A stretch of DNA of 40,570 nt from Lactobacillaceae bacterium. Lineage in GTDB: Bacteria > Bacillota > Bacilli > Lactobacillales > Lactobacillaceae. Shown here piece after piece: positions 7,208 through 40,570 of the stretch. The translations under genes and the position numbers were made by a program. The notes under the pieces were generated by a model, which had not been told where the DNA came from, searched no databases, and saw nothing but the letters and a program-made list of their open reading frames with translations. How positions within the stretch are numbered: position 1 is the stretch's first letter; each line of letters opens with the position of its first letter. Location: the NCBI GenBank assembly GCA_031289615.1, contig JAITPD010000011.1:1-40570 (forward strand), in the 5' to 3' direction.

Positions 7208-7240
7208 ATTTGTCTAACGCGTAGAGCTTGTTATGTCATA

Positions 7241-7368
7241 TTGTTCTTTTGTTGATCAGCTTCGGTAAAGATTCTTTACGTTCGGATTTCCCTACACGAA
7301 TGGGACCGTGTCGCCACTTACTATCATTATTGAAAAGTAACCACGCAAGTTAAAAATGACCAAGATGA
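7241..7368 (+). repeat. Modular palindromic intergenic repeat (family B), copy 1
   Basis: The 370 nt between the RNA gene and pox1 hold a copy of the repeat: module A (CAGCTTCGGTAAAGATTCTT, ACGTTCGGAT) followed by module B1 (GGGACCGTGTCGCCACTTAC and TAAAAATGACCAAGATG). Same module order, inverted, at 35733-35900. The remainder (7369-7489) shows nothing else recognisable. Confidence 0.75.
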
Positions 7369-7489
7369 TGCATAATTAGCACTATGCGATATTTCAATTT
7401 GGTGAAAATGGTTACGATAACATTTGCTGAAAAAGTAGTAGATTGTGAAAAAATTCAAAAAATATGACAAAAAACATTGTTAGAACGGC

Positions 7490-19460: not shown

Positions 19461-19490
19461 CGCATAGTGTTGGTTGCGTAATATTAGTTT

Positions 19491-19712
19491 TTGCTTGAGC
19501 AGCATAGCGATTCTGTCGTCGGATGACCAAGCCCTTGCCGAATCTAGGCGAACCTTTTCACGCGTGCTTTAGCGCCGTGAAATTGGCGAATTATTTCGCC
19601 ATTCGGCATGAATCGTGCAGGGCAAATCCGAACGTAAAGAATCTTTAGCGGAGCTGATCAATCAACAGACGAATTTTTAATGCACCACCACGCCCGTGAA
19701 AAATGATCAAGA
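19491..19712 (-). repeat. Modular palindromic intergenic repeat (family B), copy 2
   Basis: Most of the 380-nt gap between the MFS gene and the phosphatase gene. Minus orientation: AGCGATTCTGTCGTCGGATG, an inner TTTCACG-CGTGCTTTAGCG palindrome, TGGCGAATTATTTCGCCA, then module A reversed (CCGAACGTAAAGAATCTTTA). It ends with the shared tail GAAAAATGATCAAGATG. Some or all of it may act as the terminator of the MFS gene. Confidence 0.75.
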
Positions 19713-19780
19713 TGTTGCAAACCCAACACAACGCACTAACTAGTATTTTTGAAAATTATGAAAGATTAAATCCTCTTAAA

Positions 19781-25429: not shown

Positions 25430-25470
25430 AGTTATAAACTATGCGTAGTAATCGTTGTGAAATATTTTCC

Positions 25471-25710
25471 TTTGCTTGAACAGCTTCGCTAAAGATTCTT
25501 TACGTTCGGATGGCCCTGCACGAGTCACGGCGAATGGCAAAATAATTTGCCAATTTCACGGCGCTAAAGCTCGCGTGAAAAAATTTTCGCCTTGATTCGG
25601 CAAGGGCTGGTCATCCGACGACAGAATCGCTTCGCTGTTCAATCAAAGTGCCATTAACATTTTGGTCATTTAATTAAAGTCAACACGCAAGTGAAAAATG
25701 ACCCAGATGT
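25471..25710 (+). repeat. Modular palindromic intergenic repeat (family B), copy 3
   Basis: It occupies much of the 499-nt gap before the MacB-like gene. Plus-orientation module A (AACAGCTTCGCTAAAGATTC), inner hairpins TGGCAAAATAATTTGCCA and TTTCACGGCGC/GCGTGAAA, then the mirrored arm ending GACAGAATCGCTTCGCTGTT. A second small hairpin GGTCATTT/AAATGACC follows (25661-25703). Confidence 0.8.
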
Positions 25711-25769
25711 TTCACAACAAATTAAACCAAATGTTTATAAAATTTCGCTAAACCTGTCACTTACCGCTT

Positions 25770-28000: not shown

Positions 28001-28020
28001 GTATGAGGTGATAGTGTGTT

Positions 28021-28240
28021 TGAGTTGTTCAGCTAAGCTAAAGATTCTTTACGTTCGAATGGCCCTGCACGATTCATGCCGAATGGCAAAATAATTTGCC
28101 AATTTCACGGCGCTAAAGCTCGCGTGAAAAGTTTCGGCTAGATTCGGCAAGGGCTGGTCATCCGACGACAGAATCGCTCCGCTGAATAGCAAACTTGGTC
28201 ATTTTATTTAAAGCTACCACGCAAGTGAAAAATGACCAAT
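28021..28240 (+). repeat. Modular palindromic intergenic repeat (family B), copy 4
   Basis: It lies in the gap before pepV. Very close to copy 3, including AAAGATTCTTTACGTTCG, TGGCAAAATAATTTGCCA and GACAGAATCGCTCCGCTGAA, then TTGGTCATTTT / AAAAATGACCAA (28194-28230) as a terminal hairpin. The rest of the gap (28241-28369) shows only a possible weak pepV promoter. Confidence 0.8.
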
Positions 28241-28381
28241 GTTTTTGTGTTAGCGGAATTGAACATCTCAAACTCAATCTTTCACAACCAGCTTGAGTGA
28301 TAAATTGTTAGTCTTGAAAACCACAAATTCGCCAAAAAGAGTGTAAAATATAAGGTAGATTAACTATTGGAGGAGATTCAC

Positions 28382-29815
28382 ATGAACACGAATAAGAAAC
28401 CAGCTGAATGGCTCGCTGAGTCACTTAAATATGAAGATGCATTATTGGCAGACTTAAAGACGTTGCTTGCTATCGCGTCAGTTCGCGACGATGCAGCTGC
28501 AACTGAAGATGCCCCACTTGGCCCTAAGACTAAGAAAGCATTGATGAAGTGGGAAGAAATTGCAAAGCGCGATGGCTTCAAGACTGGAGATTTCAAAGGC
28601 CTTGTTGGTTATGCTGAATTGGGTGATCATGACGCTCCTGAATCATTGGACGTCATTGGCCACTTGGATGTGATGCCTGAAGGTGAAGGTTGGACCAAGG
28701 ATCCATTTACGCCAGTGATCGAAGACGGTCGTTTGTATGCGCGTGGTGCTTCTGACGATAAGGGTCCATCAATGATTGCGTACTATGCAGTTAAGATGCT
28801 AAAAGACATGGGATTGCCAATGAAGCGCCGTGTTCGTTTGGTGATGGGAATCGATGAAGAATCTGATTGGACTGGAATGGATGATTTCTTTGCAACAGAA
28901 GGCTATCCAACGATGGGATTCTCACCTGATGCAGAGTTTCCAATTATTAATGGGGAAAAGGGAAATGTGTCACAAGTAGTTCGCTTCGATGGAACAAACG
29001 GCGGAACCGTTAAGTTGGTTTCATTTGCAGCTGGTCAACGGCCAAATATGGTGCCTGGAACTGCAAAAGCCACTATTGAAACGGCTGATGCAGCTGCGGT
29101 TGTGACAGCTTTGGATGCATACCTTGCTAGTGAATCACGTGTGAAGGCCGAAGCTAAGGTAACTGGTAATTCAGTTGCTTTGACTTTCTATGGTAAGCAA
29201 GTTCACGGGGCCGTTCCTGAGACTGGTGAAAACGCTGGAACTTATATGGCTAATTTCTTGCAACAATTTGACTTTGGTGGCAACGCTAAGGGCTTCTTGA
29301 CGTTCTTGGGAACAGCTGTGCATGATGATTCAGTTGCTTCAAAGATTGGTGCCATTAAGCATGATGATTTGATGGGTGATCTTTCAATGAACATCGGAAT
29401 TCAACACTTTGATGATGGTCAACCTGGCTTTATCAACTTGAATTTCCGTTATCCACAAAACACGACACCAGAAGCAATTGGTGCTGCTGTTAAGGGTGGT
29501 TTGAGCACTGACTTTACTGCTACAGTTGCAATTGAAGGGCACGCGCAAGGCCCTCATTATGTTTCAGGCGACGATCCACTTGTAAAGACGTTGTTGGATG
29601 TTTACCGTGAGCACACTGGAATGCCTGCTACAGAACAAGTCATCGGTGGTGGAACATTTGGCCGTTTGCTTAAGCGTGGTGTGGCCTTTGGAGCAATGTT
29701 TGAAGGAGTTCCTGACACAATGCACCAAGCAGACGAATTCTATCCAGTGGCTGATTTAACACGGGCGATGGCAATCTTTGCTGAGGCGATTTATCGTTTG
29801 GCCAACGAAGATTAA
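28382..29815 (+). CDS. pepV: Dipeptidase PepV (M20 family)
   Basis: Zinc exopeptidase that splits dipeptides in the cytoplasm, the last step in using imported peptides. The 477 residues show the PepV/M20 metal motifs: VIGHLDVMPEGEGW (His/Asp), YARGASDDKGP (bridging Asp), GIDEESDWTGMDDFF (catalytic Glu-Glu), PDAEFP and the C-terminal GGGTFGRLLKRGVAFGAMF with DTMHQADEF (last His). The start is ATG 28382 after GGAGGAG; an in-frame TTG upstream overlaps the ribosome site. Its stop codon lies inside the first direct repeat of the 3' RNA element. Functionally it fits the two peptide-binding proteins downstream. Confidence 0.95.
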   Translation: MNTNKKPAEWLAESLKYEDALLADLKTLLAIASVRDDAAATEDAPLGPKTKKALMKWEEIAKRDGFKTGDFKGLVGYAELGDHDAPESLDVIGHLDVMPEGEGWTKDPFTPVIEDGRLYARGASDDKGPSMIAYYAVKMLKDMGLPMKRRVRLVMGIDEESDWTGMDDFFATEGYPTMGFSPDAEFPIINGEKGNVSQVVRFDGTNGGTVKLVSFAAGQRPNMVPGTAKATIETADAAAVVTALDAYLASESRVKAEAKVTGNSVALTFYGKQVHGAVPETGENAGTYMANFLQQFDFGGNAKGFLTFLGTAVHDDSVASKIGAIKHDDLMGDLSMNIGIQHFDDGQPGFINLNFRYPQNTTPEAIGAAVKGGLSTDFTATVAIEGHAQGPHYVSGDDPLVKTLLDVYREHTGMPATEQVIGGGTFGRLLKRGVAFGAMFEGVPDTMHQADEFYPVADLTRAMAIFAEAIYRLANED

Positions 29816-30000
29816 TAAAGAGCATGGAACACCGGTTTTGAGCAACGCGAAAAATTGAACTAACGAGGTAAGAAGATTATTTATCATTACGTGCAACGTG
29901 ATGATAAATAATTTTCTTAGAGTCGTATAGTTCAAAGGTGTGGAAGGCGTTTTAATAAAGAGCATGGAACACCGGTTTTGAACGAAGTGAAAAATTGAAC
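29812..30000 (+). ncRNA. Structured 3'-UTR element (family C), copy after pepV
   Basis: Direct repeat 1 (29812-29860) and repeat 2 (29952-30000), 140 nt apart, share TTAATAAAGAGCATGGAAC and CCGGTTTTGA...AAAAATTGAAC, differing only in the loop. Between them: TTGAACTA (29856-29862 region) pairs with TAGTTCAA, then CGA/TCG, TAAGAA/TTCTTA, ATTATTTATCA/TGATAAATAAT and ACGT/ACGT form one long hairpin. ACACC in repeat 1 pairs with GGTGT at 29937-29941. The element begins within the stop codon and ends before the terminator. Same element after both oppA-like genes. Confidence 0.8.
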
Positions 30001-30009
30001 ATGGGAAAA

Positions 30010-30039
30010 GGCGATTGGAAAATTCCAGTCGTCTTTTTT
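30010..30039 (+). terminator. Terminator of pepV
   Basis: GGCGATTGG (30010-30018) pairs with CCAGTCGTC (30025-30033) using two wobbles, followed by T6. Confidence 0.9.
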
Positions 30040-30165
30040 ATGAGACAAAAATTCACAATTATGCCGAAAAACCAAACAAACTGTGAAACTGTCAATCTAT
30101 TGTAGAGAAATGCATGTTGGAAGGGTAGAATATCAAGAAGAGATTAACGAGAGAGGAACTTTAGC

Positions 30166-30747
30166 ATGACTAAGAAGCATTTAATTGCAGCAATAATTGT
30201 TGGATTAGGTCTTTTTGGCGCTACTCCGATTCATGCTGACACTGAGGTTGAAAACGCCAATCAAACTAGCGAGATGATCACAGCGGATCTTGGATTGTAT
30301 GATCGGTTGACTGATTATGATGCTGAAGATCACAATGCCGTTGAAGAGGATGTCGAAGAAGAAATTGTTCGCGAGATTTTGACGAAACGCTCAGACGTTC
30401 TTGAAGTTCCAAGTGGAGTCAGTGCAAACATGGATGGTTTGATTCGCAATAAGAATCAAGGCGAAGACAAAATTAGTGTCACCACGCCAATGGGAGCAGA
30501 AGAAGTACAAACAGCAAACGAAATTGCTTTTAATGCAGATTCGACGCAAGTTAAGCATGCTGGTATTGGTGGAATTACATTTTCCATGAAAGATAACATC
30601 TGGGTACCAATTGTTGGAACTTGGATTTTGGTTGCATTGTTTGTTTGGACGATTTGTTTCTACGGAATTTTGCGTTATCAACAATCTAGAATTAAGCGCA
30701 TGATGAGTCGCTCAGAGATATCAACTCAAAATTATGGCGACGAATAA
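30166..30747 (+). CDS. Membrane-anchored, acidic extracellular protein of unknown function
   Basis: I do not recognise a family. The 193 residues have a signal peptide (1-24, cleavage near IHA), a strongly acidic segment (DYDAEDHNAVEEDVEEEIV, about 50-68), a polar region, one membrane helix (146-169) and a basic cytoplasmic tail (YQQSRIKRMMSR). Topology is therefore a type I membrane protein with a 120-residue outer domain. GAGAGGAAC precedes the ATG; it is a single gene closed by a terminator at 30763. A role in cell-surface sensing or in secretion quality control would be guesses. Confidence 0.75.
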   Translation: MTKKHLIAAIIVGLGLFGATPIHADTEVENANQTSEMITADLGLYDRLTDYDAEDHNAVEEDVEEEIVREILTKRSDVLEVPSGVSANMDGLIRNKNQGEDKISVTTPMGAEEVQTANEIAFNADSTQVKHAGIGGITFSMKDNIWVPIVGTWILVALFVWTICFYGILRYQQSRIKRMMSRSEISTQNYGDE

Positions 30748-30762
30748 ATTGAATAACCCACT

Positions 30763-30790
30763 AAAACGAGAGCCGAGGTTCTCGTTTTTT
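30763..30790 (+). terminator. Terminator after the acidic membrane protein gene
   Basis: AAAACGAGA (30763-30771) pairs with TCTCGTTTT (30780-30788), followed by TT. An extended -10 (TGGTACAAT, 30790-30798) for the birA operon starts right after. Confidence 0.85.
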
Positions 30791-30882
30791 GGTACAATAT
30801 AGGAATACTGTTGAAAAGTAAGAATGATGATTTGGCGGGTTCTGATCAATCGGTCACTCCGTAAGTTTTAAAGGAAACTATT

Positions 30883-31638
30883 ATGAATATTGAAAAATTA
30901 AAGACGTTGCTTGAAGAACAAAAAATCGATTTAAAATATTTTGATGAAATTGATTCAACTAATTTAGAAGCTAAGCGCCTTATCAATTCTGGGCCGCTCA
31001 ATCGGCCATTGGCAATTGTTGCCAACGCTCAAACGGCTGGTTATGGACGCAACGGGCGGAGTTTCTATTCGCCCAAGCAAGTGGGATTGTATTTGACGCT
31101 GGTCTTGCCTGCAGGAACTGACGAATTTAACCCAGGTAAAATCACGACCGCCTTGGCTGTGGTAGCAGTTGAAGCCATTCGCGACATCACAAAGATTCAG
31201 GTACAGATTAAATGGGTGAATGACCTTTATTTGAATGAGCATAAAGTTGGCGGAATTCTAACCGAGCTAGATAATGAACATTTAATTATTGGAATGGGCC
31301 TTAATTTGGAACCGACTGATTATCCAACAGAAATTGCCGAACGCGTGGGAGCTCTTTCTGCGCAAAATGGCATCCAAGTTGAAGAACTGATTAGTCAGCT
31401 GACTACAAAGTGGCTTCAACAGATGCAATATCCGGTTGATTTGATGGAGCGTTATCAAAAATATTCAAACCTGTTACAGAAAAAAGTTGTGCTCGCCGTG
31501 GGTCAACAAGAAGTTGCAGGAATCGTGACTGGCTTTGGAACAAGTGGCGAAATCATTCTTGAATCAGATCAGGGTCAGCAAGCATTTCATTCTGGAGAAG
31601 TTATTAAAGTACTGAAAGTTGAGGGATTAGAACTATGA
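30883..31638 (+). CDS. birA: Biotin--[acetyl-CoA carboxylase] ligase, without DNA-binding domain
   Basis: Attaches biotin to the carboxyl-carrier protein of acetyl-CoA carboxylase through biotinyl-AMP. The 251 residues begin directly with the ligase fold: IDSTNLEAKRL, the biotinyl-AMP loop AGYGRNGRSFYSPKQVG (the first Arg of the usual GRGRxGR is Tyr here), KWVNDLYLNEHKVGGILTE with the catalytic Lys, and a C-terminal SH3-like domain with GIVTGFGTSGEIIL. No winged-helix domain is present, so it cannot repress transcription as Escherichia or Bacillus BirA does. bioY overlaps its stop (ATGA), a logical biotin uptake/use operon. Confidence 0.94.
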   Translation: MNIEKLKTLLEEQKIDLKYFDEIDSTNLEAKRLINSGPLNRPLAIVANAQTAGYGRNGRSFYSPKQVGLYLTLVLPAGTDEFNPGKITTALAVVAVEAIRDITKIQVQIKWVNDLYLNEHKVGGILTELDNEHLIIGMGLNLEPTDYPTEIAERVGALSAQNGIQVEELISQLTTKWLQQMQYPVDLMERYQKYSNLLQKKVVLAVGQQEVAGIVTGFGTSGEIILESDQGQQAFHSGEVIKVLKVEGLEL

Positions 31639-32168
31639 ACGCACGCACAATCACATTAGCAGGAATTTTCGCGGCGGTTATTGCCGTGATTGCACCGCTC
31701 TCGATTCCATTACCAATCGTCCCAATTACGATGCAAACCTTGATTATCCCATTGATTGCAACTATCAGTGTGATGAGGATTAGTGGCTGGGCAACTGGTT
31801 TGTATTTGATTCTTGGAGCGGTTGGGATCCCAGTCTTTGCGAATTGGAGTGGCGGAGTTGGTTTGTTATTTGGCCCAACTGGTGGTTATCTCTGGGGAAT
31901 GTTGCTATTCCCATTGATCATCGGAGAAATATTGAAGACCAAGCGTAACTGGTTCACAATCGTCGGCAGCAACTTGCTCGCAGCTTTTGTGCAACTATTA
32001 TTTGGAACGATTTGGTTAATTGTGGCGACTGGATTACCAATTGAAAAAGGGTTGATGACTGGCTTTATTGTCTTTATCATCCCAACGTTATTGAAGGTTG
32101 CCATTGTCGTATTATTGGCTTATCTCATTGGTAAGTCGGTTAAAATCCCATTGTCTGGAACAAAGTAA
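31635..32168 (+). CDS. bioY: Biotin ECF transporter substrate-binding (S) component
   Basis: BioY binds biotin in the membrane and delivers it through the shared ECF energising module (not in the window). The 177 residues form about six helices, with the family-typical PLPIVPITMQTLIIPLIATI opening, the GAVGIPVFANWSGGVGLLFGPTGGYL stretch split over helices 3-4 (GPTGGYL being diagnostic) and a C-terminal KSVKIPL tail. It is translationally coupled to birA. The next gene follows after one base. Confidence 0.93.
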   Translation: MNARTITLAGIFAAVIAVIAPLSIPLPIVPITMQTLIIPLIATISVMRISGWATGLYLILGAVGIPVFANWSGGVGLLFGPTGGYLWGMLLFPLIIGEILKTKRNWFTIVGSNLLAAFVQLLFGTIWLIVATGLPIEKGLMTGFIVFIIPTLLKVAIVVLLAYLIGKSVKIPLSGTK

Positions 32169-32169
32169 A

Positions 32170-32736
32170 ATGAGTGAGAAAGTATTTGTATTAACTGGTA
32201 ATACTGGAACTGGCAAGACGACGGTCGCAAATTATCTGGCTGACTTCTATCAAGTGCCAAAGGTGGTCACGCACACAACGCGTTTGCCTCGTGAAGGTGA
32301 ACAAAACGGGATTGATTATTATTTTGAAACTGATGCGAGCTTTGAAACGATGCATTATCTGGAGCGAGTTGAGTATAATCAGCAAAAGTATGGTTCTTCT
32401 TATGAGGGACTAGAATTGGCTTGGCAAAAGAATCAGCTCATCACAATCGTTCTTGATACAGCCGGGGCAGTGACTTACGCGCGTGAATTAGGTGACAAAG
32501 CGGTTATCATTTTTATGAGCGTGACAAACGAAAAGGAACTGCATGATCGTTTGATTGAACGTGGTGATAATGCTGCCATGATTGAAAAGCGTTTGCATAG
32601 TGCAGAATTTGCTCGTGATTTGAATGTTCCAGAGCCTTTGCAAGGAATTGCACATGTTGTGTTGAACGATGAATGGTCTGATACAAAGCACGAAATTGAT
32701 CAAATTATCCAAGATGTGATTAATACAAAAAGATAA
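32170..32736 (+). CDS. Guanylate-kinase-like protein
   Basis: The 188 residues show a P-loop FVLTGNTGTGKTT (5-17), THTTRLPREGEQNGIDYYF (GMP-binding region as in Gmk, with the paired Arg), a YGSSYEGL segment and VVLND near the C-terminus. It is shorter than housekeeping guanylate kinase (about 205), and the P-loop NTGTGKT differs from the usual GPSGVGKGT, so it may be a divergent paralogue rather than the essential enzyme. The start at ATG 32170 is chosen because bioY ends at 32168; an earlier ATG overlaps bioY. The biotin context does not explain it. Confidence 0.75.
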   Translation: MSEKVFVLTGNTGTGKTTVANYLADFYQVPKVVTHTTRLPREGEQNGIDYYFETDASFETMHYLERVEYNQQKYGSSYEGLELAWQKNQLITIVLDTAGAVTYARELGDKAVIIFMSVTNEKELHDRLIERGDNAAMIEKRLHSAEFARDLNVPEPLQGIAHVVLNDEWSDTKHEIDQIIQDVINTKR

Positions 32737-32739
32737 TAT

Positions 32740-32761
32740 TTGACAGAAGTAGTGGTATAGT
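32740..32761 (+). promoter_or_regulatory. Promoter-like sequence before the amino-acid ABC operon
   Basis: TGGTATAGT (32753-32761) is an extended -10; TTGACA at 32740-32745 is too close (10 nt) to act as its -35, so only the extended -10 is proposed. Confidence 0.35.
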
Positions 32762-32790
32762 GAGAAATTAAGAGTACATTGGAAGAAAGC

Positions 32791-32810
32791 TTACAAATTT
32801 TTATTTGTAA
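32791..32810 (+). promoter_or_regulatory. Perfect hairpin just before the ribosome site of the ABC operon
   Basis: TTACAAAT-TTTT-ATTTGTAA is an 8-bp perfect hairpin 2 nt upstream of AGGAGG (32813-32818). It may stabilise the mRNA 5' end or influence translation; weak GC content argues against a terminator. Confidence 0.5.
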
Positions 32811-32825
32811 ATAGGAGGCAAGACG

Positions 32826-33560
32826 ATGTCAATGATCGAATTTAACAATGTTGAAAAATACTATGGTGATTTTCACGCACTAAAAGATGTTAATCTGAAT
32901 GTGGAAGCAGGAGAAACAGTGGTGCTGATTGGCCCATCTGGTTCTGGAAAGTCAACCTTGATTCGGACGATTAATGGACTTGAACCAATTCAAGGTGGAC
33001 ATTTGATTGTCAATGGCTTTGATTTGGCAGATCCAAAGACTGATATGAACAAGATTCGTAAAAATGTCGGAATGGTTTTCCAACACTTTAATTTGTATGC
33101 AAACAAGTCAGTCATTGAAAATATTATGCTGGCTCCCCGTAAAGTCTTGAAGATGGACGAAGCGGAAAATAAAAAGAATGCCATGGCTTTGCTAGAAATG
33201 GTTGGCTTGGTTGAAAAGGCTGATAAGATGCCGTCTTCACTTTCTGGTGGACAACAACAACGAATCGCCATCGCGCGTTCTTTGGCAATGAAGCCAAAAG
33301 CATTGTTATTTGACGAACCAACTTCAGCCCTTGATCCAGAAATGGTTAACGATGTTTTGAATATCATGAAGAAAATTGCGGCTGATTCATCAATGACCAC
33401 TTTGGTTGTGACGCACGAAATGGGCTTTGCCAAGCAAGTTGCTGACCGAGTGATTTTCATGGCGGACGGTCAAATTTTGGAAGACGCACCAACGACGGAA
33501 TTCTTTGCCAATCCAAAGGAGCCACGGGCCCAAAAGTTCTTGTCGCAGATCATGCACTAG
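32826..33560 (+). CDS. Polar amino-acid ABC importer, ATP-binding protein
   Basis: Energises uptake by the two permeases at 34404-35708. The 244 residues match GlnQ/HisP-type ATPases: Walker A GPSGSGKST (about 38-46), the Q-loop VFQHFNLYANKSV, signature LSGGQQQR, Walker B ALLFDEPTSALDPEM, and the H-loop VVTHEMGFAKQVADRVIFM. ATG 32826 follows AGGAGG by 7 nt. It is the first gene of a four-gene operon; the binding protein starts 10 nt after its stop. The substrate (glutamine, glutamate, arginine or another) is not readable from this subunit. Confidence 0.94.
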   Translation: MSMIEFNNVEKYYGDFHALKDVNLNVEAGETVVLIGPSGSGKSTLIRTINGLEPIQGGHLIVNGFDLADPKTDMNKIRKNVGMVFQHFNLYANKSVIENIMLAPRKVLKMDEAENKKNAMALLEMVGLVEKADKMPSSLSGGQQQRIAIARSLAMKPKALLFDEPTSALDPEMVNDVLNIMKKIAADSSMTTLVVTHEMGFAKQVADRVIFMADGQILEDAPTTEFFANPKEPRAQKFLSQIMH

Positions 33561-33570
33561 GAGGAACATC

Positions 33571-34404
33571 ATGAAAAAGTGGATTAAAATCGTGACAGTT
33601 ATTAGTGCAAGTTTACTTGTTGCGAGCTCAGTCCTAACAGTGCCAACATCTGCAGCAACTAAGAAAAATGCAGTTTTGACAAGGATTGAAAAAAAGCATG
33701 TGATGCTGTGGGGAACAAAAGCCGATACTCGTTTGATGGGCTTGATGGACATTAAAACTGGTAAGATTCAAGGTTTCGATGTTGACATGGCCAAAGCACT
33801 CACAAAGATCATTGATCCAAATGCCAAGGCAGAGTTTACCCAAGTTACTTCCGGGACGCGAATTCCTTTGTTGAAGAATGGAAATATTGACGCCATTATT
33901 GCAACTATGTCAATCACACCTGAACGGGCTAAAGTAGTTGATTTTACTAAACCATATTTCTTGGCAGGTCAATCATTGCTTGTTCAAAAGGGTTCAAAGA
34001 TTACAAATATCCAAGACGTGAATCATAAAGGAGTCACTGTTGTTGGTGTGGCCGGTTCAACTTCGGTCCAAACGATTGCTAAGTTGGCTCCTAAGGCTGA
34101 AGTGTTGGCATTGCCCGATTATGCCACAGCTTTATCAGCACTTAAAGCTGGGCAAGGGGATGTGTTAACGACTGATTCTGGAGTTATTGCCGGAATGGCG
34201 GATGAAGATAAGTCATTAATGATGGTTGGTGGAACGTTTACAAACGAATCTTATGGAATTGCCTTTGCAAAGGGAAATCCTGAATTGGTCAAGAAAACCA
34301 ATGCAGCAATTGATGAACTTCACAAAAACGGGACTTACGCTAAGTTGATCAAAAAATGGTTTAGCAAGGTTCCTGGAATGGACTGGAAGGAGATGGCAAA
34401 GTAA
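33571..34404 (+). CDS. Amino-acid ABC importer, substrate-binding protein (no lipobox)
   Basis: SBP_bac_3 family, 277 residues from ATG 33571 (GGAGGAAC before it; the longer frame overlaps the ATPase gene). Visible: GTKADTRLMGLMD, IQGFDVDMAKALTKII, the hinge segment NIDAIIATMSITPERAKVVDFTKPYF split about residue 105-125, and GVAGSTSVQTI. The signal peptide (1-28) ends TVPTSAATKK with no cysteine, so it is not a lipoprotein as in most Gram-positives; it must be free or bound to its permease. The stop overlaps the permease start (TAATG). Confidence 0.92.
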   Translation: MKKWIKIVTVISASLLVASSVLTVPTSAATKKNAVLTRIEKKHVMLWGTKADTRLMGLMDIKTGKIQGFDVDMAKALTKIIDPNAKAEFTQVTSGTRIPLLKNGNIDAIIATMSITPERAKVVDFTKPYFLAGQSLLVQKGSKITNIQDVNHKGVTVVGVAGSTSVQTIAKLAPKAEVLALPDYATALSALKAGQGDVLTTDSGVIAGMADEDKSLMMVGGTFTNESYGIAFAKGNPELVKKTNAAIDELHKNGTYAKLIKKWFSKVPGMDWKEMAK

Positions 34405-35048
34405 TGATTGAATTATTTAGTACTCATAGCCAGGAATTCTTAGTTGGCTTTGGCTGGACTCTTCTGGCCAGCGTTATCGCTTTGGTTGGTTCATTAATCT
34501 TAGGAACATTTTTTGCAATTTTAGAAGTGATTCCAAATAAAATTACGTATTATATTGCCCGCTTGTACATTGAAGTTTTACGAAATGTGCCCTTGCTGGT
34601 CATCACAATGTTCTTCTATGTTGTTGTGGCAAAAATCTTCAAGCTTAATGGTTTCTATTCAGGAACAATTGGACTGACATTGTACACTTCGGCCTTTATT
34701 GCTGAAACTGTCCGAGCCGGAATCCTTGCTGTTCCAGGTGGCCAGCTTGAAGGAGCATTGTCAAACGGCTTGTCTTGGTGGGATGGAATGCGCTTAATTA
34801 TCTTGCCTCAAGCCTTTAAATATGTGATTCCGCCTTTGGGAAACCAGTTTGTCAACTTGGTTAAGAACTCATCAGTGTTGGCGTTCGTTGCCGGTTTTGA
34901 CTTGATGTATCAGGCCAACCAAATTTCGCAACTGACTTTTGACACGTTTAATCCATTTATTATTGTTGGGTTATTCTACTTGGTCATCACGTTGCCAATT
35001 AGTTATTACATGCGTTATCTCGAAAATAAACTAGCAAAGGAGGCCTAA
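34404..35048 (+). CDS. Amino-acid ABC importer, permease 1
   Basis: HisMQ-type permease, 214 residues and five helices. The family EAA-type coupling region reads GALSNGLSWWDGMRLIILPQAFKYVIPPLGNQ (residues about 117-148), and EVLRNVPLLVI marks helix 2-3. It overlaps the binding-protein stop by one base. It pairs with the next permease to form the channel. Confidence 0.92.
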   Translation: MIELFSTHSQEFLVGFGWTLLASVIALVGSLILGTFFAILEVIPNKITYYIARLYIEVLRNVPLLVITMFFYVVVAKIFKLNGFYSGTIGLTLYTSAFIAETVRAGILAVPGGQLEGALSNGLSWWDGMRLIILPQAFKYVIPPLGNQFVNLVKNSSVLAFVAGFDLMYQANQISQLTFDTFNPFIIVGLFYLVITLPISYYMRYLENKLAKEA

Positions 35049-35051
35049 AAG

Positions 35052-35708
35052 ATGGAGAATTTTATTCACGCTTATTCATGGATTAACATGCGCTTCTTGC
35101 TCGAAGGAATGTGGGTGACGGTGCAAGTCGCCGTGATTTCTGTGGTGCTAAGTTTTATTATTGGTTCAATTTTGGGTGTTCTGCGCTACACTAAGATTCC
35201 GGTTCTGTCACAAATTGTCGGAATTATTATTGATGTTATTCGGAATTTGCCATTGCTGTTGATTATCTTCTTCACGTACTTTGCTCTGCCAAAGATTGGG
35301 ATTCATTTTAGCGTCATGGGTAGCACGATCTTTGCCTTAACGATTTTTGAATCAGCGATGTTAGCAGAAATTGTTCGTGGTGGAATCGTAGCTGTGCCAA
35401 AAGGTCAACTTGAGGGTGGACTTTCTAACGGGCTGAGCTTTTATCAAACCTTGAAGTATGTGTTGTTACCACAGGCATACAAGAAAATGATTCCGCCAAT
35501 TGTGTCGCAGTTTATTTCGTTGATTAAGGATACGTCGTTGGCTACAATCATCATGTTGCCAGAAATGACTTACCGCGCACAAATTATTTATGCGCAAAAG
35601 CCATCAGAAATTATTCCAATGTTTTTGATGCTGGCATTGTTGTACTTCATCTTGAACTACGCTTTGTCAAAGGTTGCCAATGTTTTTGATCGGCGAATGG
35701 TGGCATAG
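35052..35708 (+). CDS. Amino-acid ABC importer, permease 2
   Basis: 218 residues of the same family: DVIRNLPLLLIIFFTYFALP, AEIVRGGIVAVPKGQLEGGLSNGLS and LLPQAYKKMIPPIVSQFISLIKDTSL in the coupling region. AAGGAGGCC lies before the ATG, 3 nt after the first permease. Last gene of the operon; terminator at 35934. The two permeases are clearly paralogous and likely form a heterodimer. Confidence 0.92.
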   Translation: MENFIHAYSWINMRFLLEGMWVTVQVAVISVVLSFIIGSILGVLRYTKIPVLSQIVGIIIDVIRNLPLLLIIFFTYFALPKIGIHFSVMGSTIFALTIFESAMLAEIVRGGIVAVPKGQLEGGLSNGLSFYQTLKYVLLPQAYKKMIPPIVSQFISLIKDTSLATIIMLPEMTYRAQIIYAQKPSEIIPMFLMLALLYFILNYALSKVANVFDRRMVA

Positions 35709-35732
35709 TACTTCATACGTTATGTTGAGGTT

Positions 35733-35900
35733 TAGTTATTCAGCTTCTGGTCATTTTTCACCTGCGTGGTGTATTTTCGATAAAGATAGTAAGTGGCGAC
35801 ACGGTCCCGTTCGGCATGAATCGTTCAGGGCCATCCGAACGTAAAGAATCTTTCGCGAAGCTGATTAACTCAAATACAATATAAAATGACCAAGTTGTTT
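35733..35900 (-). repeat. Modular palindromic intergenic repeat (family B), copy 5
   Basis: In the 407-nt gap after the permeases. Minus orientation: TGGTCATTTTTCACCTGCG, GTAAGTGGCGACACGGTCCC, TTCGGCATGAATCGTTCAGG, CCGAACGTAAAGAATCTTTC, and the closing AAAATGACCA. Same modules as copy 1, reversed. Confidence 0.8.
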
Positions 35901-35933
35901 CATAACTTACAATGCTTAATTTAAATTTTTTGC

Positions 35934-35986
35934 AAACAGCTTAAACGTCCGCTAACTTTAGTGTTGGAGTGGCTTAGGCTGTTTTT
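35934..35986 (+). terminator. Terminator of the amino-acid ABC operon
   Basis: AAACAGC-TTAA (35934-35944) pairs with TTAG-GCTGTTT (35974-35984), followed by T-rich sequence. Confidence 0.65.
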
Positions 35987-36006
35987 ATATTGACATTTTG
36001 TAAGAG

Positions 36007-36050
36007 AATGAGACTAGAATTAGAGGCAAACTATTGACGGTCTCATTTTT
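36007..36050 (+). terminator. Second hairpin overlapping the oppA1 promoter
   Basis: AATGAGAC (36007-36014) pairs with GTCTCATT (36040-36047), followed by TTT. It covers the -35 box of the next promoter. Confidence 0.6.
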
Positions 36051-36062
36051 GTTAGGTAAAAT
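36034..36062 (+). promoter_or_regulatory. Promoter of the first oligopeptide-binding protein gene
   Basis: TTGACG (36034-36039), 17-nt spacer, TAAAAT (36057-36062). Confidence 0.6.
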
Positions 36063-36115
36063 TAATGTTAATTCTTATATTATGCTTTAAAAAACAGTAA
36101 GGGGTAAGAAATTTT

Positions 36116-37753
36116 ATGAATAAAGTAATGAAGGTATCAGCATTGTTGTCAGCCACGATCATCTTAGGATCATCATTGGCAACGGTCGCTACAGTTCCAA
36201 CGGCATCTGCTGCTGGTTACAAGACAATCAACTGGACAGAAACAGCTGACTTGGGAACAATGGACCCATCAGTCGTGACTGACGTTGTGTCATTTGACGC
36301 GTTGCAAGCCTCTGGTGAAGGTTTGTATCGAAATGACAAGAAGCAAAAGCCACAATTGGCATTAGCAAAGTCTGTTGACGAATCAGCCGATGGATTGACA
36401 TACACTTTCCATTTGCGTTCTGGTTTGAAGTGGGCGAACGGTGACGCTTTGACGGCACAAGATTTCGTTTACGGATGGCAACGTACTAATGATCCAAAGA
36501 CTGCATCACAATATGCATACTTGTTCTCAGGAATTAAGAATGCTGATGCAATTCAAAATGGTGAAGATACAGATTTGAGTTCATTGGGAGTGAAGGCTGT
36601 TGATGATACGACATTGGAAGTTTCTTTGGAAAAGCCAATGCCACAACTTAAGGCGATCTTGACTATGGCTCAATTCTATCCACAAAACAAAAATTTCGTG
36701 GAAAAGGTTGGTAAGAAATACGGAACTGCTGCTAAGTATACTTTGGCAAACGGACCATTTATCTTGAAGGGTTGGACTGGTTCAAACAACAAGTACAGCT
36801 TCGTCAAGAATGACAAGTACTATGATGCTAAGGCTGTTAAGTCAAAGAAGATCGTTGTTCAAACTGTTAAGGACCAAAACACTGGCTACAACTTGTATAA
36901 GTCAGGTAAGGTTGACTTCACAAACTTGTCAGCTGATCAAGTGACTGCATCAAAGAAGAACAAGGCTTACAAGGTTATCCCTCAAGCTACAACGTTCTAC
37001 TTGCAATTCAACGAAGAGAAGGCTGAATTTGCTAACACTAAGATTCGTCAAGCAATTTCATACTCAATCGATCGTTCACAAATGGCAAAGAAGATTTTGA
37101 CTGGGACTGCTACGCCAGCGGACACATTTACGTCTACTGACTTGGCTATCGATCCAAATACTGGAAAAGACTTTGCTAAGTCATCAGCAGTGAAGGGTGC
37201 AATTGCCTACAACGCTAAGAAGGCTGCAACTTTGTACAAAGAAGGTTTGAAGGAACTTGGTAAGAAGAACATCACCTTTACTTTGACAACTGACGATACT
37301 GATGGTGCAAAGAAGACTGCTCAATTCATCCAAGCTCAAGTTCAAAAGAACATGAAGGGTTCTAAGGTTGAAGTTCAAACTGTTCCGTTCAAGCAACGTT
37401 TGAATTTGTCATCAACTAAGAAGTATGACGTCGTGATCTCTGCTTGGGGTGCTGACTATGCTGACCCAAGTTCATTCTTGGACTTGTATACTTCAGATTC
37501 ATCATTTAACGAAGGTTCATGGAAGAATGCTGATTACGATGCATTGATGGCTAAGGCTTCTGGTGCGGATGTATTGGATCCAGATGCACGTTATAAGGAC
37601 ATGACTGAAGCAGAACAAATCATCGAGAAGGAAGTTGGAGTTGCTCCATTGTACTACCGCTCATATGCTGTTTTGTTGAACCCATCAGTTAAGGATGTTA
37701 TCACAAGCTCAATTGGATCTCCTTATGACTGGAAGTATGCTTACAAGAAGTAA
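36116..37753 (+). CDS. Oligopeptide ABC transporter substrate-binding protein, OppA-like (no lipobox)
   Basis: SBP_bac_5 family, 545 residues, captures peptides outside the cell for an Opp permease. Visible: NWTETADLGTMDPSVVTDV at the mature N-terminus, TFHLRSGLKWANGDALTAQDF (family signature), VYGWQRTNDPKTASQYAYL, and near the end DVVISAWGADYADPSSFLDLY. The signal peptide (about 1-33) ends TASAAGYK with no cysteine. No oppB, C, D or F is in the window, so this is an orphan binding protein. AAGGGGTAAG precedes ATG. Its codons are strongly biased (AAG, TTG, CAA), which suggests high expression. The stop lies at the start of the 3' RNA element. Confidence 0.93.
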   Translation: MNKVMKVSALLSATIILGSSLATVATVPTASAAGYKTINWTETADLGTMDPSVVTDVVSFDALQASGEGLYRNDKKQKPQLALAKSVDESADGLTYTFHLRSGLKWANGDALTAQDFVYGWQRTNDPKTASQYAYLFSGIKNADAIQNGEDTDLSSLGVKAVDDTTLEVSLEKPMPQLKAILTMAQFYPQNKNFVEKVGKKYGTAAKYTLANGPFILKGWTGSNNKYSFVKNDKYYDAKAVKSKKIVVQTVKDQNTGYNLYKSGKVDFTNLSADQVTASKKNKAYKVIPQATTFYLQFNEEKAEFANTKIRQAISYSIDRSQMAKKILTGTATPADTFTSTDLAIDPNTGKDFAKSSAVKGAIAYNAKKAATLYKEGLKELGKKNITFTLTTDDTDGAKKTAQFIQAQVQKNMKGSKVEVQTVPFKQRLNLSSTKKYDVVISAWGADYADPSSFLDLYTSDSSFNEGSWKNADYDALMAKASGADVLDPDARYKDMTEAEQIIEKEVGVAPLYYRSYAVLLNPSVKDVITSSIGSPYDWKYAYKK

Positions 37754-37932
37754 AGCATGAAGGAACGGTTTTGTGTGAAACACAAAATTGAATGGACGAG
37801 CTAAGTAGGGTTACGTGTGTTGCGTGCAACGCGACGGTAAATAACCTGCTTAGAGTCGAACAGTTCAAAGTTCCGTAAGGCGTTTATAGTAAAGCATGAA
37901 GGAACGGTTTCGAACGAAGCGAGAAATTGAAC
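37749..37932 (+). ncRNA. Structured 3'-UTR element (family C), copy after the first oppA-like gene
   Basis: Direct repeat 1 (from 37749, AGTAAAGCATGAAGGAACGG) and repeat 2 (from 37889) are 140 nt apart. GGAAC in repeat 1 pairs with GTTCC (37870-37874); the small hairpin is TTTTGTGT-GAA-ACACAAAA; the long hairpin is TTGAA...TTCAA, CGAGCTAAG/CTTAGAGTCG, AGGGTTA/TAACCT and GTTGCGT/ACGCGAC. The stop codon of the gene lies in repeat 1. Confidence 0.8.
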
Positions 37933-37941
37933 CGAATGAAG

Positions 37942-37968
37942 CGTCCCGTGAGAGCGGGGCGTTTTTTT
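37942..37968 (+). terminator. Terminator of the first oppA-like gene
   Basis: CGTCCCG (37942-37948) pairs with CGGGGCG (37955-37961), followed by T7. Confidence 0.9.
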
Positions 37969-38043
37969 GTGTTCATACAAACAACAAAGACAATTATTTT
38001 TCGCGTAAGATTAGAACAAAATAAGAATAGTCACAATTTTCTA

Positions 38044-38072
38044 TTGATTTCCTTATTTTTATAAAGTATGAT
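38044..38072 (+). promoter_or_regulatory. Promoter of the second oligopeptide-binding protein gene
   Basis: TTGATT (38044-38049), 17-nt spacer, TATGAT (38067-38072). Confidence 0.7.
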
Positions 38073-38119
38073 ATTAGTTATTGAAATATGTTTTAAGGAA
38101 AAAAAGGAGAATTTAGCGT

Positions 38120-39745
38120 ATGAATAAATGGATTAAAGCAGGGGCGTTGCTCTCAACAGGAGTGATTTTGGCTTCAGCAGTATCAGCAGTTCCTTCAGCT
38201 TCAGCAGCTACTTACAAGACAATCAACTGGACAGCAGTTTCAGATTTGCAAACATTGGACCCATCATTGGCCACTGATGCAACTTCAATCACTGCATTGT
38301 CATCTTCAACAGCTAGCTTGTACAGCACTAAGAACGGTCAACCAGTTTTGGAAGCTGCTAAGTCAGTTAAAAAATCTGATGACGGTTTGAAGTACACAAT
38401 TACTTTGCGTTCAAACTTGAAGTGGGCAGACGGATCAAAGTTGACAGCACAAGATTTCGTTTATGGTTGGCAACGGACAAATGATCCTAAGACTGGTTCA
38501 GAATATGCTTACTTGATGTCTGGAATTAAGAATGCTGATGCGATTCAAAAGGGTGAAGTTACCGATTTGAACGAATTGGGAATCAAGGCGATCAACGACA
38601 CAACTTTGGAAGTTGAATTAGAACGTCCATTGGCAGTCTTTTCAGCTTTGTTGACAATGCCAGCTTTCTATCCACAATCACAAGCTTTCGTTGAAAAAGC
38701 TGGTGACAAGTTTGGAACAACCGCAGCAACAAACCTTGCATCTGGTCCTTATATTGTTAAGGGGTGGAATGGTTCAAACCAAAAGTATAGTTTCGTCAAG
38801 AACCCAAATTATTGGGATGCTAAGGCCGTAAAGACGCCTAAGATTACGACACAAATTATCAAAGATCAAAACACTGGCTACAACTTGTTTAAGGGTGACA
38901 AGGTTGACTTTACAATTCTTTCACCAGATCAAGTAAAGGCTTCAAAGAAGGACAAAGCTTATGGTCTGACTCATCTTGGTGCCGAAAATTCATTGACGTT
39001 GAATGAAGTTAAGATTCCTGAATTTAAAAACTTGAAGATTCGCCAAGCAATTTCAGATGCAATTGATCGTAAAACTTTGTCTGACAAGATCATGAGCGGA
39101 TCAGCCGTAGCAGCTACAACGATTACACCAACGCACTTTGCTAAGGCAGCAAACGGTAAAGACTTCGCAACTGCTTCAGAAGTTAAGGGAGCCATCAAGT
39201 TTGACAAGAAGGCTGCTGCAAAACTTTGGAAAGAAGGATTGAAAGAAGTTGGTAAGTCAAAGTTGACATTTACAATCTTGACTGACGATGACGATGCTTC
39301 AAAGCGCGCTGTGCAATATGTTCAATCAGAATTGCAAACGAACTTGAAGGGCTTGACTGTCAACGTTAAGACGATGCCAAAGAAGCAACGTTTGGCATTG
39401 CAATCGGCTAAAGACTTTGATGTCGTAGTATTTACTTGGATGGCTGATTATTCAGACCCATCATCATTCTTGGACTTGTACACGACGGATGCAACTTATA
39501 ACTACGGTGGATGGTCAAATGCTGACTATGACGCTGCTGTGAAGAAGGCGCAAACAACTGATGCAGCTAATCCAAAGGCTCGTTTGAATGATTATGCTCA
39601 GGCTGAAAAGATCATTGAAAAGAACTTGGGATCAATTCCTTTGTATTACCGTGCAACTCCATACTTGGAAAACACAAAGGTTCATGGAGTGGTACAAAAC
39701 CCAGCCGGAAACCCTTACGAATTCAAGTATGCTTACAAGAAGTAG
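38120..39745 (+). CDS. Oligopeptide ABC transporter substrate-binding protein, OppA-like paralogue (no lipobox)
   Basis: 541 residues, a close paralogue of the previous gene over the whole length: NWTAVSDLQTLDPSLATDA, ITLRSNLKWADGSKLTAQDF, VYGWQRTNDPKTGSEYAYL, DVVVFTWMADYSDPSSFLDLY, and the same C-terminal YAYKK. The signal peptide ends PSASAATYK, again without cysteine. Differences concentrate in the central lobe (about 270-300 and 330-420), where peptide specificity resides, so the pair may bind different peptides. AAGGAG precedes ATG. It is a separate transcription unit with its own promoter, the same 3' RNA element and a terminator. Confidence 0.93.
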   Translation: MNKWIKAGALLSTGVILASAVSAVPSASAATYKTINWTAVSDLQTLDPSLATDATSITALSSSTASLYSTKNGQPVLEAAKSVKKSDDGLKYTITLRSNLKWADGSKLTAQDFVYGWQRTNDPKTGSEYAYLMSGIKNADAIQKGEVTDLNELGIKAINDTTLEVELERPLAVFSALLTMPAFYPQSQAFVEKAGDKFGTTAATNLASGPYIVKGWNGSNQKYSFVKNPNYWDAKAVKTPKITTQIIKDQNTGYNLFKGDKVDFTILSPDQVKASKKDKAYGLTHLGAENSLTLNEVKIPEFKNLKIRQAISDAIDRKTLSDKIMSGSAVAATTITPTHFAKAANGKDFATASEVKGAIKFDKKAAAKLWKEGLKEVGKSKLTFTILTDDDDASKRAVQYVQSELQTNLKGLTVNVKTMPKKQRLALQSAKDFDVVVFTWMADYSDPSSFLDLYTTDATYNYGGWSNADYDAAVKKAQTTDAANPKARLNDYAQAEKIIEKNLGSIPLYYRATPYLENTKVHGVVQNPAGNPYEFKYAYKK

Positions 39746-39923
39746 AGCATGAAGGAACGGTTTCGAACGAAGTGAGAAATTGAACGGACGAGCTAACTAG
39801 GGTGCGTGTGTTGCGTGAAACGCGACGCTAAGGAACACAGTTAGAGTCGAGCTGTTCAAAGTTCCGTAAGGCGTTTATGGTAGAGCATGAAGGAACGGTT
39901 TCGAACGAAGTGAGAAATTGAAC
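39742..39923 (+). ncRNA. Structured 3'-UTR element (family C), copy after the second oppA-like gene
   Basis: Repeats 39742-39785 and 39880-39923 are identical over 44 nt (GTAGAGCATGAAGGAACGG, then TTTCGAACGAAGTGAGAAAT, TGAAC) and 138 nt apart. GGAAC in repeat 1 pairs with GTTCC at 39861-39865. Long hairpin: TTGAAC/GTTCAA, CGAGCTAAC/GTTAGAGTCG, GTTGCGT/ACGCGAC. The TAG stop is in repeat 1. Confidence 0.8.
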
Positions 39924-39937
39924 TTATGAAAAAACAG

Positions 39938-39979
39938 CGCGGTTGAGACAGAATTTTATATTTTGCCTCAACCGCGTTT
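39938..39979 (+). terminator. Terminator of the second oppA-like gene
   Basis: CGCGGTTGAG (39938-39947) pairs perfectly with CTCAACCGCG (39967-39976); the T-run is short. Confidence 0.8.
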
Positions 39980-40016
39980 GTGTAAATTAGATGATGCGTA
40001 TTGCTAATTATTAAAC

Positions 40017-40324
40017 ACCTTGTTCATTTTTCAATTACATGGTGGATTTTTGATAAAGATAGTAAGTGGCGACACGGTCCCATTCGGCTTTTAATTTCGT
40101 TGACCCGAAATTTAGTCGAATTGGTGCCACTACCTCGCTTTAAGGAGTGTGCACAAAGGCGCTCTGAGCTGTCGGGATAAGATTATTTTCCAATTTGCTA
40201 CCAAAGCGTAGCGACGTAGTGATTTGGAAAATGATCTTATAACCGAAACTCAGCCTTTGTAAACACGATAATCACTTAATATCATCATCTCAAGCCACCA
40301 CGCCTTAAACTAAATGAACAAGGT
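40017..40324 (-). repeat. Family B repeat, copy 6, interrupted by a nested element
   Basis: Ends ACCTTGTTCATTT (40017-40029) and AAATGAACAAGGT (40312-40324) are a perfect 13-bp inverted repeat, with TGGTGG/CCACCA further in. The left half has module B1 reversed (GATAGTAAGTGGCGACACGG) up to CATTCGGC; then unrelated sequence and the family D hairpin follow. Confidence 0.7.
40144..40270 (+). repeat. Long-hairpin intergenic repeat (family D), copy 2, nested
   Basis: Outer arms GTGTGCACAAAGGC / GCCTTTGTAAACAC, middle arms GGGATAAGATTATTTTCCAA / TTGGAAAATGATCTTATAAC, core ACCAAAGCGTAGCGACGTAG. Same core as 2735-2860, but the outer arms differ and still pair. Confidence 0.8.
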
Positions 40325-40331
40325 TTCTGTC

Positions 40332-40570
40332 GTTATATTGTTCTTTGATTGATCAGCGCAGCGATTCTGTCGTCGGATGACCAGCCCTTACCGAATCTAG
40401 CCGAAACTTTTCACGCGTGCTTTAGCGCCGGGAAATTGGCGAATTATTTCGCCATTCGAACCACCTCCGTTACTAAGTCGCCCAGCTGTATGACACAGCT
40501 GCCCAACTAAGTACTGCGGATCGTGTTTTGGTAAGCGATAAATCGCTAACAAAACGCATAATGAATCGTG
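40332..40570 (-). repeat. Family B repeat, copy 7, with a ~105-nt insert, cut by the window end
   Basis: Matches copy 2 from CAGCGATTCTGTCGTCGGAT through GGCGAATTATTTCGCCATTC. Then, where copy 2 continues GGCATGAATCGTG, an insert of about 105 nt (40450-40558) intervenes before ATGAATCGTG. The insert holds two hairpins (CAGCTGT/ACAGCTG; GTTTTG..AGCGAT/ATCGCT..CAAAAC). No gene is visible from 39746 to the window end. Confidence 0.7.

Follow-up and report, generated by a model that had tools for sequence, protein, structure and literature searches.

A dispersed, structured repeat docked behind stop codons looks like a new kind of small mobile element in a Lactobacillaceae genome

We describe a repeat of about 132 nt that folds as an RNA on its sense strand and docks behind stop codons, and which is probably a non-autonomous mobile element (we put the probability at roughly 0.78). 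It is dispersed over the genome, shows a sense-strand bias, is present or absent between species and is flanked by short repeated linkers. Rather than a regulator of peptide genes, it seems to be a small mobile repeat of a new kind, set apart from the known ones by their descriptions. Small mobile repeats in bacterial UTRs are already known; the unusual point here is a strongly covarying multi-helix fold that starts a few bases from the stop at most sites.

Three copies of the structured element lie in the window, that is, the whole analysed stretch of 40,570 nucleotides, at 29812-30000, 37749-37932 and 39742-39923. Each of them consists of a 49-nt repeat, a spacer and a second 49-nt repeat (repeat family D3, n=6), whereas the unit proper is only 132-133 nt long (Table 1). 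The second 49-nt repeat belongs to another copy, of which it is the 5' part, and this neighbour is most plausibly older and shortened; behind pepV a weak CM match covers it as well (29960-30016). Counting the unit's final base, the linker of unit 1 has an 8-nt suffix in common with the upstream flank. An earlier, sequence-only reading had described the copies as starting at the stop codon and ending before a terminator, and this is seen in all three, the hairpin after unit 2 being the sole one in the pattern scan.

Table 1. Coordinates of the three copies, their host genes and neighbouring features in the window
Feature	Position	Strand	Evidence or remark
Host gene pepV (dipeptidase)	28367..29815	+	NCBIfam NF005591, above cut-off
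Unit 1	29820..29952	+	133 nt; 4 nt past TAA of pepV; CM R1 131.7 bits; alignment, pair counts
Unit 1, P1 helix	29829-29833 (ACACC) with 29937-29941 (GGTGT)	+	alignment
Unit 1, 3' linker TAATAAA	29953..29959	+	repeats bases preceding unit 1, target-duplication-like
Partial second copy after unit 1	29960..30000	+	GAGCATG, P1 5' strand, P2 hairpin; D3
Terminator-like hairpin with T run, 3' of pepV copy	30004..30039	+	sequence, predicted fold; absent from simple scan
Host gene, oligopeptide-binding protein (first OppA-like)	36116..37753	+	NCBIfam matches below equivalog cut-offs
Unit 2	37753..37885	+	133 nt; first A is last base of TAA of first oppA-like gene; CM R1 130.5 bits
Partial second copy after unit 2	37892..37932	+	D3; weak CM match, E 0.017
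Terminator after unit 2	37938..37965	+	terminator scan: 12-pair stem, T run
Host gene, second OppA-like protein	38120..39745	+	NCBIfam matches below equivalog cut-offs
Unit 3	39745..39876	+	132 nt; first G is last base of TAG of second oppA-like gene; CM R1 131.0 bits
Partial second copy after unit 3	39883..39923	+	D3; weak CM match 39883-40008
Terminator-like hairpin after unit 3	39938..39979	+	sequence, predicted fold; absent from simple scan

The same reading had proposed that the fold is kept while both strands change, and its helices are present: P1 as ACACC/GGTGT or GGAAC/GTTCC, the long hairpin with CTAAG/CTTAG or CTAAC/GTTAG, and the small stem TTTTGTGT/ACACAAAA in the first oppA copy. 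In the predicted fold of the sense strand, P1 is the closing helix, P2 branches off as a side hairpin, and P3 continues into the long hairpin P4/P5. The compensatory changes are real, since among 20 own-genome units we found double changes in 29 of the 45 pairs (17.2 when shuffled), and 91.7% of the pair cells were paired against 79.2% when shuffled, none of 500 shuffles being as high in either measure. When the partners were slid by 1-3 columns, pairing in the own-genome units fell to 34-43%. Extending the count to 39 copies of six species gave double changes in 38 of the 45 pairs; the alignment used, A2, results from a fit to the model and is biased towards the model's structure, and it leaves out L053, the partial matches and L120 (not given, or removed by the E-value limit). 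The chimeric match L017 was excluded from the model alignment. When each copy is compared with its nearest one (divergence 11-28%), 134 of 178 changed pairs still pair, whereas random change would leave about 55 of 265. Furthermore, the predicted fold of the sense strand was more stable than that of the antisense strand in 39/39. A conserved RNA-type fold, apparently maintained via compensatory change, is thus supported. The earlier reading knew no described RNA class with this layout, and no Rfam class was found for it: with Rfam 15 at gathering cut-offs, the window and seven unit loci gave two tRNAs and one L21 leader, none of them on the unit, and in a permissive search of 29700-40000 all the matches had E values of at least 2.4 and fell below the cut-off.

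The own genome (G000) has 26 strong CM matches, scoring 64-142 bits and scattered genome-wide over 24 sites, some of them in tandem, and the 5' motif has 43 matches, the reversed pattern none. For 20 of the 24 sites, the first base of the unit falls between -1 and +8 nt relative to a stop codon on the sense strand, at 2 further sites a reading frame ends inside the unit, and L033 and L036 are without an upstream sense gene. Random placement would bring about 2 sites into this range, and none of 200,000 placements reached 20, which has to be taken as an estimate, because the range was set after the distances had been seen; the gaps of L028, L032 and L034 were set from sequence, 100 nt was used where no next gene was called, and the distances of the other repeat family use ORF ends chosen by hand. 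Among the 15 stubs examined, 10 sit -1 to +4 nt from a stop.

As for the marks of insertion, the repeated linkers match the upstream flank over 4.2 nt on average, far above the 1.65 nt of the shuffles (0/5000 as high), yet in 8 of 29 units only one base is shared, and several units have little or no repeated linker. With about 132 nt and 26 strong matches, the unit lies under the 200 bp limit of MITEs and occurs in many copies, as they do. Its ends GAGCATG and AAACGCC, compared by eye in three units, match poorly as a terminal inverted repeat, and the inverted match starts inside, at P1. A small ORF from the ATG within GAGCATG was dropped (by eye), because sister copies read GAGCATA or GAGCACA.

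The suggestion that the copies belong to peptide or amino-acid genes did not hold. The upstream genes at the 24 sites (n=22) are mixed, and only pepV and the two oppA-like genes, plus one asparaginase, are related to peptides; the remaining ones with a hit belong to cell wall, replication, translation, lipid, NAD, sugar and purine functions. The hosts are mostly housekeeping genes, e.g. dnaB, murG, nadE, lepA, ychF and pfl (L044 was scanned by NCBIfam only, L052 and L053 by Pfam only). These mixed hosts rule out a peptide-gene regulon, and the three peptide-gene hosts in the window are a local coincidence. Neither does the expected recurrence behind peptide genes in several species appear, given that the element is not behind pepV in 26/26 other species read. 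What stands from the proposed relation to genes is the relation itself: the copies are tied to genes, through the stop codons of many gene kinds.

In the nearest sister species the element is missing at 9/9 loci compared, namely pepV and 8/8 others. At these loci the own-genome gene ends at the same codon as in the nearest species in 5 cases and 1-4 codons earlier in 4 (the ends of nadE, lepA, including the G015 frame, and galE were compared by eye). At four further loci (A-D) presence and absence differ among five sister species, and the empty-site junctions are blurred. Strong matches occur in 7/28 species of the genus, and there were none in the other genera sampled. Out of 16 sister-species units, 9 are at stop codons, 3 (in G007) follow a terminator-like T run or stand in tandem, and 4 are located between a pair of tRNA-Gln genes, in antisense orientation. 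Since the element is lineage-specific and comes and goes between sister species, it is better explained as a mobile repeat than as a 3'-UTR regulator of ancestral origin. These genes with the same post-stop RNA, and their orthologues without it, are natural replicates on which the effect of a structured domain behind the terminating ribosome could be tested.

A host-owned cis-regulatory 3'-UTR RNA (a stabiliser, a processing signal or the source of a released sRNA), spread by duplication and selected per locus, is possible, although we consider it unlikely. It would agree with a fold maintained in strongly diverged copies, with the exclusive use of the sense strand and with the proximity to stops, as well as with the rnr-smpB gap, where six genomes (G000, G003, G004, G013, G023 and G027; gene names checked for G000 and G023) have either the element itself or a stub or deleted form of it. 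However, the host genes have no common theme, the element is missing behind the same genes in sister species and restricted to few species of the genus, and many copies are stubs or internally deleted forms.

For the mobile element, we propose that new units would insert right behind stop codons, or right before a unit already there, copying a few target bases. In this way the beginning of the 3' UTR, or of an intergenic gap, would come to consist of such a unit, and older units would be reduced to stubs of the 5' end or to forms with internal deletions. Some enzyme would presumably be the mover. The fold may be kept for the element's own spread and/or because the host tolerates, or profits in cis from, a structured domain behind the terminating ribosome, which might protect the 3' end or tune the upstream gene, effects that have been reported for REP and ERIC. 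Even the most similar copies are at least 11% apart, and hence there is no fresh burst that would prove present activity.

How a mobile element could find stop codons is a question that follows from this. A rather doubtful answer is that it targets translation termination, so that an enzyme-moved structured RNA/DNA would be inserted by a mechanism recognising the 3' end of a translated gene, new copies stacking before old ones at the same stop. An improbable rival explanation is mobilisation by retrotransposition or as single-strand DNA (SINE-like, or of the IS200/IS605/RAYT type), with which a strand-specific fold with short variable target repeats and the tandem copies would be consistent. 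Nevertheless, of the sole mobilising genes sought, by profile, RVT_1 is in 0/7 carrier species (3/28 genus genomes overall), and Y1_Tnp, also positive in 3/28 genus genomes, is found among the carriers in G021 and G023 only. Both are absent from G000, the holder of most copies, and so RT or Y1 mobilisation was set aside there; this assembly is 95.6% complete, so that such a gene could be missing from it. The plasmid and phage collections gave no match to an own-genome unit, nor did the plasmid collection to two sister-species units. With a 21-nt pattern there was no match in the viral set, and 17 in the one-genome-per-species collection, one per genome over unrelated groups, which we read as chance (own-genome records are possibly omitted in both).

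We give still less credit to a two-state switch, in which the P1' strand would pair with the first copy (R1) or the second (R2) and a terminating ribosome covering R1 would shift the pairing. Such a switch would account for the stop adjacency, and in the three window copies the predicted R2:P1' probability is 0.71-0.92 when every base is left free and 0.86-0.997 once R1 is covered; at locus D, R2 is the 5' arm of the terminator. In the 29 units with R2 (P1' taken from a fixed offset, L070 with its R2 out of register), 123/145 R2:P1' pairs form against 99 by chance (0/2000 shuffles as high). However, this excess comes mostly from units in which R2 equals R1, which common descent explains too, and the 15 units where they differ have 55/75 pairs against 49 by chance (82/2000 as high). 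Moreover, R1:P1' keeps 4-5 of 5 pairs in 33/33 units, whereas R2:P1' has only 1/5 in L120 and R2 is lacking in 4/33 units.

Among the open-access papers listed, nothing matched, either for stop-docked structured repeats or for repeats and structured RNAs in Weissella/Leuconostoc. Judging from their descriptions, in the parts of the cited sources that were accessible, the nearest in kind would be ERIC, YPAL, bcr and REP. ERIC (IRU, RU-1) of enterobacteria, 127 bp long, is likewise a small dispersed repeat and a structured RNA, and it is co-transcribed, its orientation being of importance for the effect on the upstream mRNA; it differs in its TA termini and short terminal inverted repeats, and stop-codon docking is not described in that part of the source (PMC2229807). 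YPAL (RU-2) of Yersinia, with 168 bp, is similar in the lack of TA ends, the internal inverted repeats and the filled and empty sites, has variable target duplications of 3-26 bp and is linked to upstream gene transcripts, but it belongs to other bacteria and targets areas of dyad symmetry, not stop codons (PMC2229807). The bcr1-bcr18 repeats are, as here, group-restricted Gram-positive intergenic repeats (Bacillus cereus group), found in mRNAs in 84/165 and 62/155 cases in two strains, some MITE-like and some predicted RNA elements, although no stop-codon docking is described in the accessible text (PMC3446304). Finally, REP/BIME with the RAYT transposase are hairpin repeats close behind stop codons, and REPs less than 16 nt from the stop are reported to lower translation (PMC12306157). 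They differ from our unit in the Y1 gene, not found in G000, in their size of 20-40 bp (PMC3733652), and in the proportion within 15 nt of a stop, 446/4,072 predicted in E. coli (PMC12306157) versus 20/24 sites here.

The element belongs to an evidently mobile family of small structured units that dock, unusually, at stop codons. Dispersal, fold, sense bias, polymorphism between species and stop-codon docking were all found for it. No comparable family was listed in the searches made of the open-access literature, and none of the Rfam families matches it. The three copies in the window each consist of a 49-nt repeat, a spacer and the same repeat again. The sequence-only reading was right in seeing three structured copies. 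The unit proper (132-133 nt) comprises, from 5' to 3', GAGCATG, P1, the hairpin P2, P3, the long hairpin P4/P5, the second strand of P3, that of P1, and a 3' tail terminating in AAGGCGTTT; a short linker follows, after which another partial copy starts.

By eye, we also saw at least three times in the own genome, G000 (L183, L187 and L025), a short form some 72 nt long, in which the 5' half is fused to CGTTCTGCA and P1 and P2 are retained. This is perhaps a separate subfamily.

Regarding the fold, 20 own-genome units in a plain MAFFT alignment showed double changes in 29 of 45 pairs and 91.7% of cells paired; none of 500 shuffles, which ignore relatedness, matched either value, and sliding the partners along the alignment left a pairing of only 34-43%. 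Homologues in sister species were recovered with a model built from the own-genome units. Among 39 units from six species, double changes affected 38 of the 45 pairs, 92.7% of cells were paired and the covariation score was 0.613 versus 0.198 in shuffles that likewise ignore relatedness, although this alignment was fitted to the model and is therefore biased towards structure. The compensatory changes claimed from the sequence alone are strongly confirmed. When each unit was set against its closest relative (11-28% divergence), pairing was kept in 134 of 178 changed pairs, against around 55 of 265 for random change. At the tip of P2, two positions carry non-standard pairs of the G.A type in 12-13 of the 20 units. 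The sense strand was predicted to be more stable than the antisense strand in all 39 units (mean -49.5 versus -34.8 kcal/mol).

In G000 the model gave 26 matches (64-142 bits) spread over 24 sites, of which two hold tandem pairs, besides weaker partial matches; the 5' motif occurs 43 times and its reversed control pattern never. The distance from the stop codon of an upstream gene on the same strand to the start of the unit is -1 to +8 nt at 20 of the 24 sites, whereas random placement in the same gaps would give an estimated 2 or so. At two further sites the upstream frame ends within the unit, namely murG (L049), whose stop codon lies inside it, and a gene encoding glutamine-amidotransferase and phosphoribosyltransferase domains; L033 and L036 are without an upstream sense gene. 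Among the shortened copies, 10 of the 15 examined lie at -1 to +4 nt from the stop. Of 16 sister-species units, 9 sit at a stop codon; another 3, all in G007, follow a terminator-like T run or stand in tandem, and the remaining 4 belong to a single locus, shared by three species, where they lie antisense between two tRNA-Gln genes. By eye, the G007 units at L063 and L067 directly follow a terminator-like T run and not a stop codon; possibly a different target rule applies there.

The peptide-gene theme of the sequence-only reading was not borne out, because only 3 of the 22 upstream genes in the own genome are peptide-related, and its appearance in the window is a coincidence. The hosts matched PBP2B, YycI, a GW-domain protein, a LytR-type protein and MurG, and also diacylglycerol kinase, asparaginase, YhaM, TruB, PepV, NadE, LepA, two OppA-like proteins, DnaB, GalE, YchF, pyruvate formate-lyase, a purF-like protein and, below the cut-off, a xylose-isomerase-like TIM barrel; some of these genes extend past the locus edge, and several matches fall below equivalog cut-offs. 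Two of the 22 had no match in the protein-family search. Sister-species hosts include GatB, ValS, phosphogluconate dehydrogenase, RNase R and, with weak matches only, an aldo/keto-reductase-like protein.

Of the 28 species in the genus, 7 gave strong matches to the model and an eighth (G004) gave fragments. At least 6 of 397 genomes were positive in the family-wide search (40 genera sampled), all of the same genus, and at least 1 of 395, the own genome, in the order-wide search (80 genera); these searches scored 8 candidates per genome, so that copies can be missed, and G023, found by a closer search, is absent from the family-wide positives. Among the genomes searched, the family was seen in one genus only.

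Behind pepV, the element was missing from all 26 other species read. The closest species as judged by PepV (G015, 89% identical) also lacked it at all 8 further orthologous loci queried, every one of which was recovered. Gene ends of the two species fall at the same codon in 5 of 9 loci (pepV, ychF, yhaM, galE and pfl); in nadE, lepA, murG and dagK (L038, L039, L049 and L031) the own proteins are 1-4 residues shorter at the end. Insertions may therefore clip and re-close coding ends. At yhaM the own unit was inserted where G015 has a gap of 10 nt to the next gene. We also compared four loci among five sister species (G003, G013, G021, G023 and G027). At locus A, G013 carries a unit, G003 and G027 carry R-like remnants, and G023 and G021 have nothing; B is filled only in G021 and C only in G013; at D there is a unit in G013 and in G027, only a solo 5' stub in G003 and in G023, and nothing in G021. 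At locus D (L131, L132, L133, L135), judged by eye, the stub forms the 5' arm of an apparent transcription terminator, and changes in the 3' arm match those in the 5' arm (AGCAAC..GTTGCT versus AGCACTG..CGGTGCT); it looks like an element remnant taken over as a terminator.

The gap between rnr and smpB in G013 holds a full unit, then a deletion remnant like G023's unit there, and then a stub, which looks as if a newer unit had landed directly behind the stop codon, ahead of an older one. The linkers on either side of a unit have on average 4.2 nt in common (1.65 in shuffles), the match being a single base in 8 of 29 units. Because of this stacking and the shared linkers, the second copy of the repeat is best interpreted as an older neighbour that has been shortened. 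The 3' strand of P1 could pair with either the first or the second copy; for the three copies in the window such two-state pairing is thermodynamically possible, and across all 29 units this strand is matched by the second copy more often than by chance (123 of 145 pairs). However, the fit is barely above chance in the 15 units whose second copy differs from the first, and we consider two-state pairing quite improbable.

In six species the same gap contains the element itself, a form with a deletion, or a stub (L186 in G000, L061 in G003, L121 in G004, L064 in G013, L120 in G023 and L069 in G027; gene names checked in G000 and G023); it is an old or repeatedly used site. Both RNase R and SmpB function in trans-translation and RNA decay, and the hosts include a further exoribonuclease, YhaM.

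Neither a reverse transcriptase (RVT_1) nor a Y1 transposase (Y1_Tnp) was found in G000. In E. coli, structured repeats less than 16 nt from the stop were reported to lower translation (PMC12306157), and ERIC was reported to affect upstream mRNA stability (PMC2229807); a similar effect on the host gene would be plausible by analogy.

The intergenic gaps of the window also hold a second dispersed repeat family, unrelated to the first, in both orientations and with parts 80-95% alike. Positions 40000-40570 had no match in the plasmid collection. The distance from members of this second family to the closest ORF end upstream ranges from 6 to 276 nt, and look-alike pieces also adjoin L056 and L187.

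Positions of the two repeat families in the window
Feature	Coordinates
Structured element	29812-30000
Structured element	37749-37932
Structured element	39742-39923
Second repeat family	7230-7387
Second repeat family	19477-19717
Second repeat family	25462-25712
Second repeat family	28011-28246
Second repeat family	35748-35890
Second repeat family	40021-40458
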